From contig QZKM01000033.1 in assembly GCA_003599485.1 (NCBI GenBank), forward strand, positions 1 to 33,351: a stretch of 33,351 nucleotides of DNA, read 5' to 3'. Position numbers and translations under genes: made by a program. Numbering within the stretch: position 1 is the stretch's first letter; each line of letters begins with the position of its first letter. The notes below the pieces were generated by a model. That model worked only from the letters and a program-made list of their open reading frames with translations, made no database searches and was not told the DNA's origin. Positions 3,876 to 28,914 of the stretch are shown here, piece by piece. The stretch comes from Gammaproteobacteria bacterium (GTDB taxonomy: Bacteria; Pseudomonadota; Gammaproteobacteria; SURF-13).

Positions 3876-3904
3876 ATTACGGAAATATGACAATTATGTT
3901 ACAT
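3876..3904 (-). promoter_or_regulatory. PHO-box-like array upstream of pstC
   Basis: Read leftwards, the sequence has three adjacent 11-base units resembling CTGTCATAWAW: ATGTAACATAA (8/11), TTGTCATATTT (9/11) and CCGTAATAAGC (7/11). The 18-mer TTGTCATATTTCCGTAAT matches the PhoB box consensus CTGTCATAWAWCTGTCAY at 14 of 18 positions by my count. The overlapping 18-mer ATGTAACATAATTGTCAT also scores 14. It lies 48-76 bases before the pstC start. PhoB is known to bind tandem 11-bp units, and inference assigns this site to pstCAB-phoU. No strong -10 is visible; TAAGCT at 3871-3876 is in suitable register. Confidence 0.6.
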
Positions 3905-5135: not shown

Positions 5136-5153
5136 GTGACAATTTGATGAAAG
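5136..5153 (-). promoter_or_regulatory. PHO box upstream of pstS
   Basis: Read leftwards the 18 bases are CTTTCATCAAATTGTCAC, matching the PhoB box consensus CTGTCATAWAWCTGTCAY at 15 of 18 positions by my count. Ten bases further on is CAACAT (5120-5125), a weak -10 in the spacing typical of PhoB-activated promoters, in which the second half-site replaces the -35. The site is 66 bases upstream of the pstS ATG. The strong match and the target gene make a PhoB site very likely. Confidence 0.75.
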
Positions 5154-7636: not shown

Positions 7637-7670
7637 TTGTAACAAATATGTCATCAAGTGTTCATAAAAT
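7637..7670 (+). promoter_or_regulatory. PHO-box array and -10 of ppk
   Basis: Three adjacent 11-base units resemble CTGTCATAWAW: TTGTAACAAAT (7637-7647), ATGTCATCAAG (7648-7658) and TGTTCATAAAA (7659-7669), each 8/11. The 18-mer at 7637-7654 matches the PhoB box at 14 of 18 positions. Exactly 10 bases later is TAAAAT (7665-7670), a good -10. Transcription should begin at about 7677-7679, at the ppk ATG. The pattern and spacing are seen; PhoB control is inferred. Confidence 0.65.
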
Positions 7671-15730: not shown

Positions 15731-16168
15731 ATGACCATACAACTGCGCGCCGCGCCTTTCGACCCTTGGCAGGAACTGGCCCGCTACCAGGCAAACCTCA
15801 ATCAGGCGGGAAAGTTTGGCGCCACGGCCTGCTTCGCAGGGACGCTGCGCGACATGAATCAAGGCGATACGGTGAGCGCCATGACGCTGGAGCACTATCC
15901 CGGCATGACGGAAAAATATCTGGAGCAAATCAGCGCCGAGGCCGCGCAGCGTTTTGCAATTTTGGACAGCCTTATCCTGCATCGCCACGGCGCGCTTGCG
16001 CCCAATGACGCCATCGTGCTGGTAGCGGCATGGGCCGAGCACCGCGCGGCGGCGTTTGACGCCTGCCGTTATCTCATCGAAGAGCTGAAAACACGCGCGC
16101 CGTTCTGGAAAAAAGAGACACTGGAACACGGCGCGCGCTGGGTAGAGCACAACACCGCGCCGCGCTAA
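15731..16168 (+). CDS. moaE: MoaE, molybdopterin synthase large (catalytic) subunit
   Basis: A 145-residue MoaE of normal length. It binds the MoaD C-terminal tail and transfers sulfur to cyclic pyranopterin monophosphate. Recognisable segments are FAGTLRDMNQGDTVSAMTLEHYPGMTEK, RHGALAPNDAIVLVAAWAEHR and APFWKKE, the lysine-rich active-site stretch. The ATG at 15731 is preceded by a GGAG at a suitable distance. It lies downstream of moaD in the same direction but 230 bases away, so it may be separately transcribed or have a leader. The downstream 303-base gap belongs to the next gene's regulatory region. Confidence 0.96.
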   Translation: MTIQLRAAPFDPWQELARYQANLNQAGKFGATACFAGTLRDMNQGDTVSAMTLEHYPGMTEKYLEQISAEAAQRFAILDSLILHRHGALAPNDAIVLVAAWAEHRAAAFDACRYLIEELKTRAPFWKKETLEHGARWVEHNTAPR

Positions 16169-16471
16169 GCCCAACGCGGCACGATCTGCGTCACGCCAAA
16201 AAAGACCCTGCTTTTATGCGAGATAACGGCGGGAATTTAACTGAAATTTCACTCTGAAACCATATATTCACGTTGAATTTACATTGATTTACATCAAATT
16301 TACATTCGACTTTTAAAATTATTTTTTCTGTTAAATTGTTATTGAATAATGCTGCGGAAAGGATGATGATAATCTGTTGCCTACGGACAATAACATTGGC
16401 GCAGCAAACCGCAGCCGGGGTTCCGGGCGAAGCAAAAGCTTCATCGGCTCAGCGCGCCGGATTCCACCACC
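16169..16471 (+). promoter_or_regulatory. AT-rich intergenic region with perfect FNR/ANR box and phased ATTTACAT repeats
   Basis: This gap has no gene. Its centre is strikingly AT-rich compared with the surroundings. TTGAT-TTAC-ATCAA at 16284-16297 matches the FNR/ANR/CRP-family consensus TTGATN4ATCAA perfectly. TATTTT at 16320-16325 is a -10 placed so that the box centre would be at -41.5, the class II activator position. The box is embedded in three copies of ATTTACAT starting at 16277, 16287 and 16298, spaced about one helical turn apart. The predicted start near 16332 leaves a 140-base leader to the next gene. Confidence 0.6.
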
Positions 16472-18976
16472 ATGAAGAATATGTTGTTGCGCGTCCTCCT
16501 TGTTATCGAGGGCATAGAAGACGACGCCATGCGGATGACGCACGAGCTTACGCGCGCCGGTTATTGGGTGATAACGGAGCGCGCTGCCGCAGCGGACGCC
16601 CTGCGCGCGGCGCTGGAGCGCCGGTGGGACGTCGTGCTGTCGGACTACAGCCTGCCGCATTTCACCGCCCTGGAAGCGCTCTCCATCATCCAGCAGCACG
16701 ACCCTGATCTGCCGTTCATTATCGTCTCCGGCGCCATCGGCGAGGAACGCGCCGCGGAAGCGATGCGCCGCGGCGCGCGCGATTGCGTGGCGAAGGATAA
16801 TCTCACGCGCCTTCCCGCCGTGGTGGAACGCGAACTGCGCGAAGCGGAGGGGCGGCGCAGGCGCAAGCGGGCGGAACAGGCGCTGTTCGCCGGCGAGACG
16901 CGGCTGAAAGAGACGCAACGCCTCGCGCGTCTCGGCAGCTGGGAACTGGATCTCGTGAATAACGATCTCAAGTGGTCGGACGAGATCTACCGCATCTTCG
17001 AGATCGAACCCGCGCAGTTCGGCGCCTCGTACCAGGCCTTCCTCGATACGGTTCATCCCGACGATCGCGAACGGGTGAACCGCGCCTATACCGAATCGGT
17101 GCGGAACCGCATCCCCTGCGACATCGTGCACCGGCTGCGCATGAAGGACGGGCGCGTGAAATACGTGCACGAGCACTGCGAGACTTTCTACGATGGAGAA
17201 GGCCGGCCTCTGCGCTCCCTCGGCACGGTGCAGGACATCACCGGGCACAAACAGGCCGAGGACGCCCTGTTCCGCGAAAAGGAGCGTGCTCAGGTCACCT
17301 TGCAGTCCATCGGCGACGCCGTGGTCACCACCGACGCGCACGGGCTGGTCACTTATCTCAATCCCGCCGCCGAGCGGCTTACCGGCTGGGGCAACGATGA
17401 AGCGCAGGGCCAGGCTCTGCTGCGCATATTCAACGCCGTTCACGAGGACACGCGCGAGCCGCGCGAGTGCCCGGCCCTGCAGGCCCTGCGCGAGCGGCGC
17501 ATCATCGAGCTTAGCGCGCACACCTTGCTGATCCGGCGTGACGGGGTGGAGTTCGCGGTGGAGGACTCGGCCGCGCCCATCTTCAATCGTGCTGGCGACA
17601 TCATCGGCGCGGTGCTGGTGTTTCGTGACGTAAGCCACTCGCGTATGTTGACCAACCAGATCGCCTACCATGCGCGCCACGACGCCTTGACCGGCCTGCT
17701 CAACCGGCGCGAGTTCGAGTTGCATCTGGACCAGGCGCTGGAGAGCGCGCGCAATGAAGGCAAGCATCATGCGGTATGTTATCTGGACCTGGACCAGTTC
17801 AAGATGGTGAACGACACCTGCGGCCACGTCGCGGGCGATGAACTGCTCAAGCAGTTAAGCGCCAGGCTGCACAAGCATATCCGCGAAAACGACGTGCTGG
17901 CGCGCTTCGGCGGCGATGAATTCACCGTGCTGCTGGAGGGCTGCCCGCCGGACAAGGCCTGTGAAATCGCGGAATCCCTGCGCACCGTGGTAAATGAGTC
18001 GCGCTTCGCATGGGGGGATAAATCGTTCGAAATCAGCGCGAGTGTCGGCCTGGTGCCAGTCGGCTCCGGCAGCGGCAGCGCCGGCGACATCCTGGCCGCC
18101 GCGGACTCAGCCTGTTACGTAGCCAAATACCAGGGCCGCAACCGCGTGTACATGTATAACCCCAACGACAGCGCGCTCGCCGAGCGGCGCAGCGAGATGC
18201 AGTGGGCGGGCCGCCTGCAAAAAGCCCTGGAACAGGACGGTTTCCGTCTCTACTACCAAACCATGCTGCCGCTCAACCCCGGCCCCGGTGAAAACCAACA
18301 CGGTGAAGGCGAGCACTATGAAATCCTGCTGCGCAAACAGGACACGGAAGGCAACCTGGTGCTGCCCAACGCCTTCATCCCCGCCGCCGAACGCTACAAC
18401 CTGATGCCGGCCATAGACCGCTGGGTGATCCGTCATACACTCAAGGCGCTCGCCGCGCAACGCCAGGAGCATGCGGCATCCGCCTGCGCGATCAACCTCT
18501 CCGGCCAGTCGCTGTGCGATGACCGTTTCCTGGATTTTGTGATTGATGAGGTCAACCAGGCCGGGATCGTCCCCGCCCGCATCTGCTTCGAGATCACCGA
18601 GACCGCGGCCATCGCCAACCTGTCGCGCGCCATGCGCTTTATTTCCATGCTCAAGGGCATGGGCTGCCGCTTCGCGCTGGATGACTTCGGCAGCGGCCTG
18701 TCCTCGTTCGCCTATCTCAAGAACCTGCCGGTGGATTATCTCAAGATAGACGGCGGCTTCGTGCGCGGCATGGCGCGCGATCCGATAGACCACGCCATGG
18801 TCGAATCCATCAACCAGATCGGCCACGTGATGCGCATCCAGACCATCGCCGAATCGGTGGAGAGCGAGGACGTGCTCGCCGCGCTCAAAAAACTCGGCGT
18901 GGACTACGCGCAAGGCTACGCGCTGATGCAGCCGCAGCCCTGGTTACCGGACACCGCGCACAACCCTGCGCCGTAA
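16472..18976 (+). CDS. REC-PAS-PAS-GGDEF-EAL cyclic-di-GMP regulator
   Basis: An 834-residue protein with no membrane segment. The receiver domain (about 6-125) has the phosphoacceptor Asp58, Ser86 and Lys108, but the acidic pair reads Glu13-Gly14, so one magnesium-binding aspartate is missing. PAS domains follow at about 150-262 (with a PAC-like tail) and 275-395. GGDEF is intact at 480-484 with an RxxD site REND (471-474). The EAL domain reads Glu617-Ile-Leu in place of EAL, and FEITET, Asp737-Asp738 FGSG, LKIDG and AESVES are intact, so phosphodiesterase activity is plausible. The protein could both make and degrade c-di-GMP in response to phosphorelay and PAS signals. The ATG has no good Shine-Dalgarno. 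A candidate FNR promoter lies upstream. Confidence 0.93.
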   Translation: MKNMLLRVLLVIEGIEDDAMRMTHELTRAGYWVITERAAAADALRAALERRWDVVLSDYSLPHFTALEALSIIQQHDPDLPFIIVSGAIGEERAAEAMRRGARDCVAKDNLTRLPAVVERELREAEGRRRRKRAEQALFAGETRLKETQRLARLGSWELDLVNNDLKWSDEIYRIFEIEPAQFGASYQAFLDTVHPDDRERVNRAYTESVRNRIPCDIVHRLRMKDGRVKYVHEHCETFYDGEGRPLRSLGTVQDITGHKQAEDALFREKERAQVTLQSIGDAVVTTDAHGLVTYLNPAAERLTGWGNDEAQGQALLRIFNAVHEDTREPRECPALQALRERRIIELSAHTLLIRRDGVEFAVEDSAAPIFNRAGDIIGAVLVFRDVSHSRMLTNQIAYHARHDALTGLLNRREFELHLDQALESARNEGKHHAVCYLDLDQFKMVNDTCGHVAGDELLKQLSARLHKHIRENDVLARFGGDEFTVLLEGCPPDKACEIAESLRTVVNESRFAWGDKSFEISASVGLVPVGSGSGSAGDILAAADSACYVAKYQGRNRVYMYNPNDSALAERRSEMQWAGRLQKALEQDGFRLYYQTMLPLNPGPGENQHGEGEHYEILLRKQDTEGNLVLPNAFIPAAERYNLMPAIDRWVIRHTLKALAAQRQEHAASACAINLSGQSLCDDRFLDFVIDEVNQAGIVPARICFEITETAAIANLSRAMRFISMLKGMGCRFALDDFGSGLSSFAYLKNLPVDYLKIDGGFVRGMARDPIDHAMVESINQIGHVMRIQTIAESVESEDVLAALKKLGVDYAQGYALMQPQPWLPDTAHNPAP

Positions 18977-27978: not shown

Positions 27979-28914
27979 ATGCCACAGGCGGCGTCCCCCA
28001 CGTGCAACGCCGTCACCGCGCGCGGACTGAGCAAACTCTACAATGGCGCGCCCGCGGTAGACGGCATAGACCTCGACATCCCCTCCGGACTCTGCTTCGG
28101 CCTGCTCGGCCCGAACGGCGCGGGTAAAACCACCACGCTGCGCATGCTGCTCGGCGCCACGCCACCGAACGGCGGCACGCTTGCAGTGCTGGGCTACCCG
28201 ATTCCCGTACAGGCGCGTGAGATGCGCGCGCGCGTGGGCGTAGTGCCGCAGCAGGACAATCTCGACCCCGATTTCACCGTCATCGAAAATCTGCGCGTGT
28301 ACGCCAGCTATTTCGGCCTGTCCGGCCCCGCGCTGGAACGGCGCATTGAAGAGGTGCTGCATTTCGCGGCGCTGGAGAGCAAGACGCGGGCCGGCATCAA
28401 CACCCTGTCCGGCGGCATGAAGCGCCGCCTTACCCTGGCGCGCGCGCTCATCAACGACCCGGAACTCCTGGTGCTCGACGAGCCCACCACCGGCCTCGAT
28501 CCGCAGGCGCGCCAGATGCTGTGGCAGCGCTTGCGCACGCTGATGACGCAAGGCAAGACCCTGATTCTCACCACGCACTACATGGAAGAGGCCGAGCGCC
28601 TGTGCCAGCGTATCGCGGTGATGGATCATGGCCGTATCCTGGCCGAAGACAGCCCGGCGGGGCTGATCGGGCGCCACATCGAACCGCAAGTGATCGAGGT
28701 GTACGGCGCCGATGTCGAAACCTGGTTCAACACTCACGCGCGCGCGCGCGTGGAGCGCGCGGAGCGCATTGGCGAAACCGTATTCTGCTACGCCCACGAC
28801 ATGCGTGAGTTGCTGGACGACCTCGCCGCGCGCCCCAGCCTGCGCTACATCCACCGTCCGGCCAACCTGGAAGACGTATTCCTCAAACTCACCGGACGCG
28901 ATTTGCGCGATTAA
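27979..28914 (+). CDS. ABC transporter ATP-binding protein, NodI/daunorubicin-type
   Basis: A 311-residue ATPase of the ABC-2 exporter class. Walker A is GPNGAGKTT, the Q-loop PQQDNLDPDF, the signature TLSGGMKRRL, Walker B LLVLDEPTTGLDPQ and the H-loop THYMEEAERL. The C-terminal extension resembles NodI/DrrA subunits. With the downstream permease it would export a lipid-linked saccharide, drug or other unidentified molecule. I prefer ATG 27979; a TTG at 27973 overlaps the preceding stop. The partner gene is 209 bases downstream, an unusually wide gap that holds an inserted repeat element. Confidence 0.92.
   Translation: MPQAASPTCNAVTARGLSKLYNGAPAVDGIDLDIPSGLCFGLLGPNGAGKTTTLRMLLGATPPNGGTLAVLGYPIPVQAREMRARVGVVPQQDNLDPDFTVIENLRVYASYFGLSGPALERRIEEVLHFAALESKTRAGINTLSGGMKRRLTLARALINDPELLVLDEPTTGLDPQARQMLWQRLRTLMTQGKTLILTTHYMEEAERLCQRIAVMDHGRILAEDSPAGLIGRHIEPQVIEVYGADVETWFNTHARARVERAERIGETVFCYAHDMRELLDDLAARPSLRYIHRPANLEDVFLKLTGRDLRD

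Follow-up and report, generated by a model that had tools for sequence, protein, structure and literature searches.

A candidate class II FNR site upstream of a GGDEF-EAL gene in an uncultured gammaproteobacterium

The region between moaE and a gene for a predicted c-di-GMP enzyme carries a perfect FNR/ANR box, and we consider it probable (about 0.65) that this box is a functional FNR/ANR-type activator site. At low oxygen FNR would bind TTGATTTACATCAA, activate the gene at 16472-18976 in class II mode and alter c-di-GMP turnover. The window, the whole stretch of DNA that we analyzed, is 33,351 nucleotides long and corresponds to a single contig, G000:C21, in a genome of 1.69 Mb and 96% completeness. 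For comparison we used one genus-mate, hereafter the congener, and four other genomes of the family; genome-wide counts rest on pattern searches.

A perfect FNR box precedes a GGDEF-EAL gene

The palindromic box TTGATTTACATCAA lies at 16284-16297, with its center at 16290.5, and is the sole perfect match to TTGATN4ATCAA in the window, which bears out the first-pass annotation. It also fully matches TTGATNNNNATCAA, the sequence expected at class II FNR-activated promoters. With one mismatch allowed, TTGATN4ATCAA has four matches in the window compared with 0.41 expected. The GC content of the window is 62.6%, and the stretch 16230-16350 is 77% AT. When the 303-bp intergenic region was dinucleotide-shuffled, 0.09% of the shuffles contained a match at all 10 defined positions. 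The box is nested within three tandem repeats of ATTTACAT, again as previously described. Tandem Repeats Finder reports 3.0 copies of a 10-bp unit at 16276-16306, with copies beginning at 16277, 16287 and 16298 and thus spaced by 10 and 11 bp. At least two copies of ATTTACAT occurred in 0.02% of shuffles of the same region.

The upstream neighbor moaE (15731-16168, Pfam MoaE) and the downstream gene (16472-18976) are both encoded on the + strand. Since no gene is divergent, the box can serve only the latter. Its product of 834 amino acids has the Pfam architecture REC-PAS-PAS-GGDEF-EAL and contains the motifs RENDVLARFGGDEF, EILLR, NLSGQS, FEITE, DDFGSG and LKIDG, so that the GGDEF motif, the RxxD I-site and the EAL-domain motifs are all in place. 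The protein is therefore a predicted GGDEF-EAL c-di-GMP enzyme with its catalytic motifs, in agreement with the c-di-GMP regulator proposed earlier. Because both the GGDEF and the EAL domain look intact, the direction in which c-di-GMP would change cannot be told. Of the molybdenum-cofactor connection suggested in the first-pass annotation, the position of moaE directly upstream and co-directional stood, while any link between the two genes amounts to adjacency. A search for near matches of the region in E. coli genomes returned none.

At the acidic pocket of the receiver domain (16499-16530) the sequence is VIEGIEDD, compared with IEDNEDD in the congener; the ED pair is preserved in the other orthologues too. 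In this species only, one residue was gained and one acid of the pocket lost, for which an assembly error is possible; the phospho-acceptor region SDYSLP is retained. If the assembly is correct, phosphorylation control of the GGDEF-EAL protein may, speculatively, have been lost.

The genome encodes a predicted Fe-S FNR protein and an FNR regulon

A single FNR/CRP-type (Crp_2-type) regulator is encoded in the genome. It contains the cysteines C19, C22, C28 and C122; the Fe-S FNR pattern, as in E. coli FNR, is C-x2-C-x5-C plus C122. The protein passes the NCBIfam Fnr cut-off (252.4 versus 228 bits), and the solved structures closest to it are those of FNR-type regulators. It can be classed as a canonical Fe-S FNR protein, with the cluster predicted from the four cysteines.

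Perfect FNR boxes occur 13 times in the 1.69 Mb genome and not once in the reversed control. With 0.25 boxes expected from the base composition of the window, this is a 50-fold excess. A few of these boxes are situated within reading frames and could be due to chance. The remaining boxes include ones ahead of or close to genes for a D-2-hydroxyacid dehydrogenase and Hsp20, for the anaerobic ribonucleotide reductase NrdD and a phosphoribosyltransferase, and for a phosphoketolase, a beta-CASP protein and a PPDK_N protein. NrdD, phosphoketolase, D-2-hydroxyacid dehydrogenase, Hsp20 and PPDK_N are typical of low-oxygen metabolism. By inspection of the flanking genes, six of the boxes have a perfect counterpart at the corresponding place in the congener. 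The box between the D-2-hydroxyacid dehydrogenase and Hsp20 genes (G000:C4; L146 2308-2430) is followed about 40 nt on by a near-perfect second box, TTGATCTAGGTCAA, and then by a PAS-GGDEF gene and fnr.

The box lies at class II spacing from a candidate -10 hexamer

The candidate -10 hexamer TATTTT (16320-16325, + strand) follows the box by 22 nt, which places the box center at -41.5 from a putative transcription start at 16332 (+ strand). This gap dominates in the family. Across six genomes, -10-like hexamers after FNR boxes peak at gap 22 with 20 of 61 (mean score 2.51), compared with mostly 2-7 at other gaps; the 61 are box-gene pairs, among which a palindromic box flanked by two candidate genes counts twice, and they include the box of the window. 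Gap 22 is the class II position and the usual geometry of the family's FNR regulon, and the candidate TATTTT lies exactly there.

The hexamer itself is less telling. TATTTT agrees with TATAAT in four of six positions, and in shuffles of the downstream stretch a hexamer with at least 4/6 appeared at exactly gap 22 in 13.6% and anywhere in gaps 20-23 in 44.5%. By these frequencies, and those given above for the box and the ATTTACAT repeats, the latter two go beyond chance and TATTTT alone does not; by itself it is weak evidence in AT-rich DNA. A better hexamer, TAAAAT (16314, 5/6), is wrongly spaced. The earlier placement of a -10 at the class II position was supported in its spacing, which coincides with the family peak, with TATTTT itself a weak candidate.

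Taken together, these features point to the following course of events. At low oxygen the genome's single Fe-S FNR protein would dimerize and the dimer would bind TTGATTTACATCAA centered at -41.5. Bound FNR would contact RNA polymerase in class II mode, raising transcription of the REC-PAS-PAS-GGDEF-EAL gene from about 16332, and the additional GGDEF-EAL protein would change c-di-GMP turnover. Binding, start site and activation, like the direction of the c-di-GMP change, are what we infer. Observed are the box, an FNR protein that has the four cysteines, the regulon and class II spacing as the geometry usual in that regulon.

Known systems provide close parallels. In E. coli and Salmonella Enteritidis, yfgF (pdeF), a gene for a GGDEF-EAL c-di-GMP phosphodiesterase, has a class II FNR-dependent promoter (PMC3718329). 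Both promoters precede a GGDEF-EAL gene, and they would have in common an FNR box at -41.5 and a -10 at class II spacing, for which the window offers a candidate hexamer; expression of yfgF was measured, and the control proposed here is read from sequence. YfgF is a membrane protein with a MASE1 domain and a degenerate GGDEF domain, whereas the protein in the window has a REC-PAS-PAS arrangement and an intact GGDEF motif. As the architectures differ, this is not homologous control of the same gene, and nothing points to a shared ancestry of the two promoters. The box consensus and the -41.5 position are likewise those of the E. coli class II FNR promoters (nirB, narG, dmsA and others; PMC3688515), for which start site and FNR dependence have counterparts here only by inference.

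The site appears to be specific to this species

In the congener, which has the same moaE neighbor, the aligned stretch reads TTTACACACATCAC, with three of the ten defined positions changed, and the segment that holds the -10 is missing. No perfect box was found upstream of the orthologues in three further family genomes (G003, G004 and G005), the best matches having 2 to 4 mismatches; upstream of the G003 and G004 orthologues the sequence is a different one and moaE is absent. The first-pass annotation had named lack of conservation as a ground for rejecting its proposal, and to the extent of these four genomes conservation is indeed lacking in part. As far as the compared family genomes reach, the FNR site seems specific to this species. 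It probably arose or sharpened recently in this lineage, perhaps from short ATTTACAT duplications.

The pattern does not extend to related proteins or to other genes of the genome. Among 79 GGDEF-EAL relatives from other genomes with enough upstream sequence, none was preceded by a perfect box and one by a box with one mismatch, so there is no recurring FNR pattern in this protein group. The genome contains 17 GGDEF genes, and only the one at 16472-18976 has a perfect box upstream. The other 16 have no box with fewer than two mismatches in the 400 bp upstream, less sequence being covered for one that starts near a contig end. One GGDEF protein (G000:C12, 28610-29071) carries an N-terminal Protoglobin domain, through which oxygen may also reach c-di-GMP by way of a globin sensor. 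The FNR box at G000:C12:26668 was considered as a switch for this globin-coupled cyclase and rejected, as roughly 1 kb or more, including another ORF, separates it from the downstream GGDEF gene.

The congener shares a different element with the window. A leader island, ATTGAATAATGC..CGGAAAGGA.GATGAT, aligns between the two at 16341-16370 (+ strand), downstream of the proposed start at 16332; it may point to a further promoter or to an element of the leader. Given this island and the long inferred leader of about 140 nt, another promoter is possible. No Rfam match of weight to a c-di-GMP riboswitch or other known RNA was obtained for the leader. Neither does it look like a missed N-terminus: although the congener's leader can be read through in frame, that of the window is out of frame, and by eye the substitutions are not of a coding kind.

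These comparisons bear on whether the box might be an accident of AT-rich tandem duplication, with no regulatory role and with the gene expressed from another promoter. That neither the congener nor the three other orthologues have a perfect box, that the box is nested in short repeats and that the congener preserves the leader island instead would all fit such an origin. Yet the rarity of a perfect match in shuffles of the region, the genome-wide excess of such boxes and the class II spacing speak against it, and we would expect FNR to bind any accessible perfect box. We therefore regard an accident as unlikely. For activation by FNR it still counts as adverse evidence that the congener's box is degenerate where six other boxes are perfect, that G003-G005 offer none, that the -10 is weak and that there may be another promoter.

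Possible repression of an overlapping promoter

FNR might also bind the box and repress, with transcription starting at a different promoter, one that overlaps the box or lies upstream of it. A promoter scan returned two suitable pairs against 0.7 expected, namely TTTACA (16278) with TACATT (to 16306) and CTGAAA (16241) with TATATT (to 16268), and at repressed E. coli promoters FNR sites span from upstream of the -35 to the start site (PMC3688515). The two promoter-like matches, however, are within the spread of shuffles. Moreover, the distance from the box to TATTTT equals the prevailing class II spacing of the family, and in E. coli the site lies at -41.5 +/- 4 in 19 of the 23 FNR-activated promoters whose starts are known (PMC3688515). 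Repression is accordingly quite improbable in our assessment.

The tandem repeats and a possible second regulator

The ATTTACAT repeats could themselves be the site of a second regulator. Candidates are a response regulator of the OmpR/PhoB family and the LuxR-type regulator that belongs to a cytochrome cluster. The promoter would then combine oxygen with another signal, or both proteins would compete for the same DNA. Such a site would be compatible with FNR control, so our confidences in the various readings are not constrained to total one. The spacing of 10-11 bp between direct repeats recalls the sites of OmpR/PhoB-family regulators. On the minus strand the repeats read TGTAA-N6-TGTAA-N5-TGTAA, and TGTMA-N6-TGTMA has 12 occurrences against 3 in the control, the phoB, pstC and ppk promoters included. 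With Pho boxes, the direct repeats bound by PhoB, they share the TGTAA-like half-site and the 11-bp spacing on that strand.

Scoring led us to reject PhoB as the reader of the repeats. A matrix was derived from 17 Pho boxes that the family carries in its pstS, pstC, phoB and ppk promoters. With it the repeats reach 7.3 (+) and 2.3 (-) bits, far below the 17-29 bits of the real boxes (leave-one-out). The window does contain strong Pho boxes elsewhere, at 3887-3903 (-) for pstC, 5136-5152 (-) for pstS and 7638-7654 (+) for ppk, with 29.0, 23.3 and 23.9 bits from a matrix that includes them and 20-28 bits in leave-one-out scoring. A CpxR-like reading found no matching regulator in the genome. The minus strand carries GTAAA-N6-GTAAA-N5-GTAAA and the CpxR site is GTAAAN5GTAAA, but the genome encodes three OmpR-family regulators, PhoB among them, and all stay below the CpxR cut-off.

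The closest look-alikes of the repeats, TGTAAATATAGTGTAA and TGTAAAAATAGTGTAA, are found at G000:C29:27175-27190 and 28865-28880 (L313 7176 and 8866), where they precede a long cytochrome-like gene and a gene ahead of a LuxR-type response regulator. They are closely similar to the repeats but stand in the opposite orientation, and a C29-like pattern with two mismatches allowed gave nothing above control in relatives; since the pattern was derived from these two sites and the one in the window, the agreement of the three with it carries no weight. We likewise discarded the idea of a regulon of TTTAC or TGTAA tandem repeats across the family, as counts in relatives are at control level. The repeats are also not conserved in the congener. 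With PhoB failing and no CpxR identified, the earlier suggestion that the repeats may be sites for a second regulator gained no support, and we consider such a site distinctly doubtful. The simplest account would be micro-duplication of about ten bases.

Significance

Returning to class II activation by FNR, the promoter, if functional, would be an oxygen-responsive entry point into c-di-GMP signaling in a small-genome uncultured gammaproteobacterium with 17 GGDEF genes. The general picture would remain unchanged, because E. coli already provides a GGDEF-EAL gene under class II FNR control. In a more far-reaching scenario, control of the enzyme would have passed recently from a two-component system to oxygen: the receiver would have lost a conserved pocket acid, short duplications would have built the FNR site and promoter, and FNR-dependent transcription would have replaced phosphorylation. 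We hold this sequence of events to be very improbable. Were receiver phosphorylation truly lost, then together with the new FNR site this would, speculatively, constitute a change of input. If functional, the site would illustrate how a single lineage might acquire an FNR site inside short repeats.
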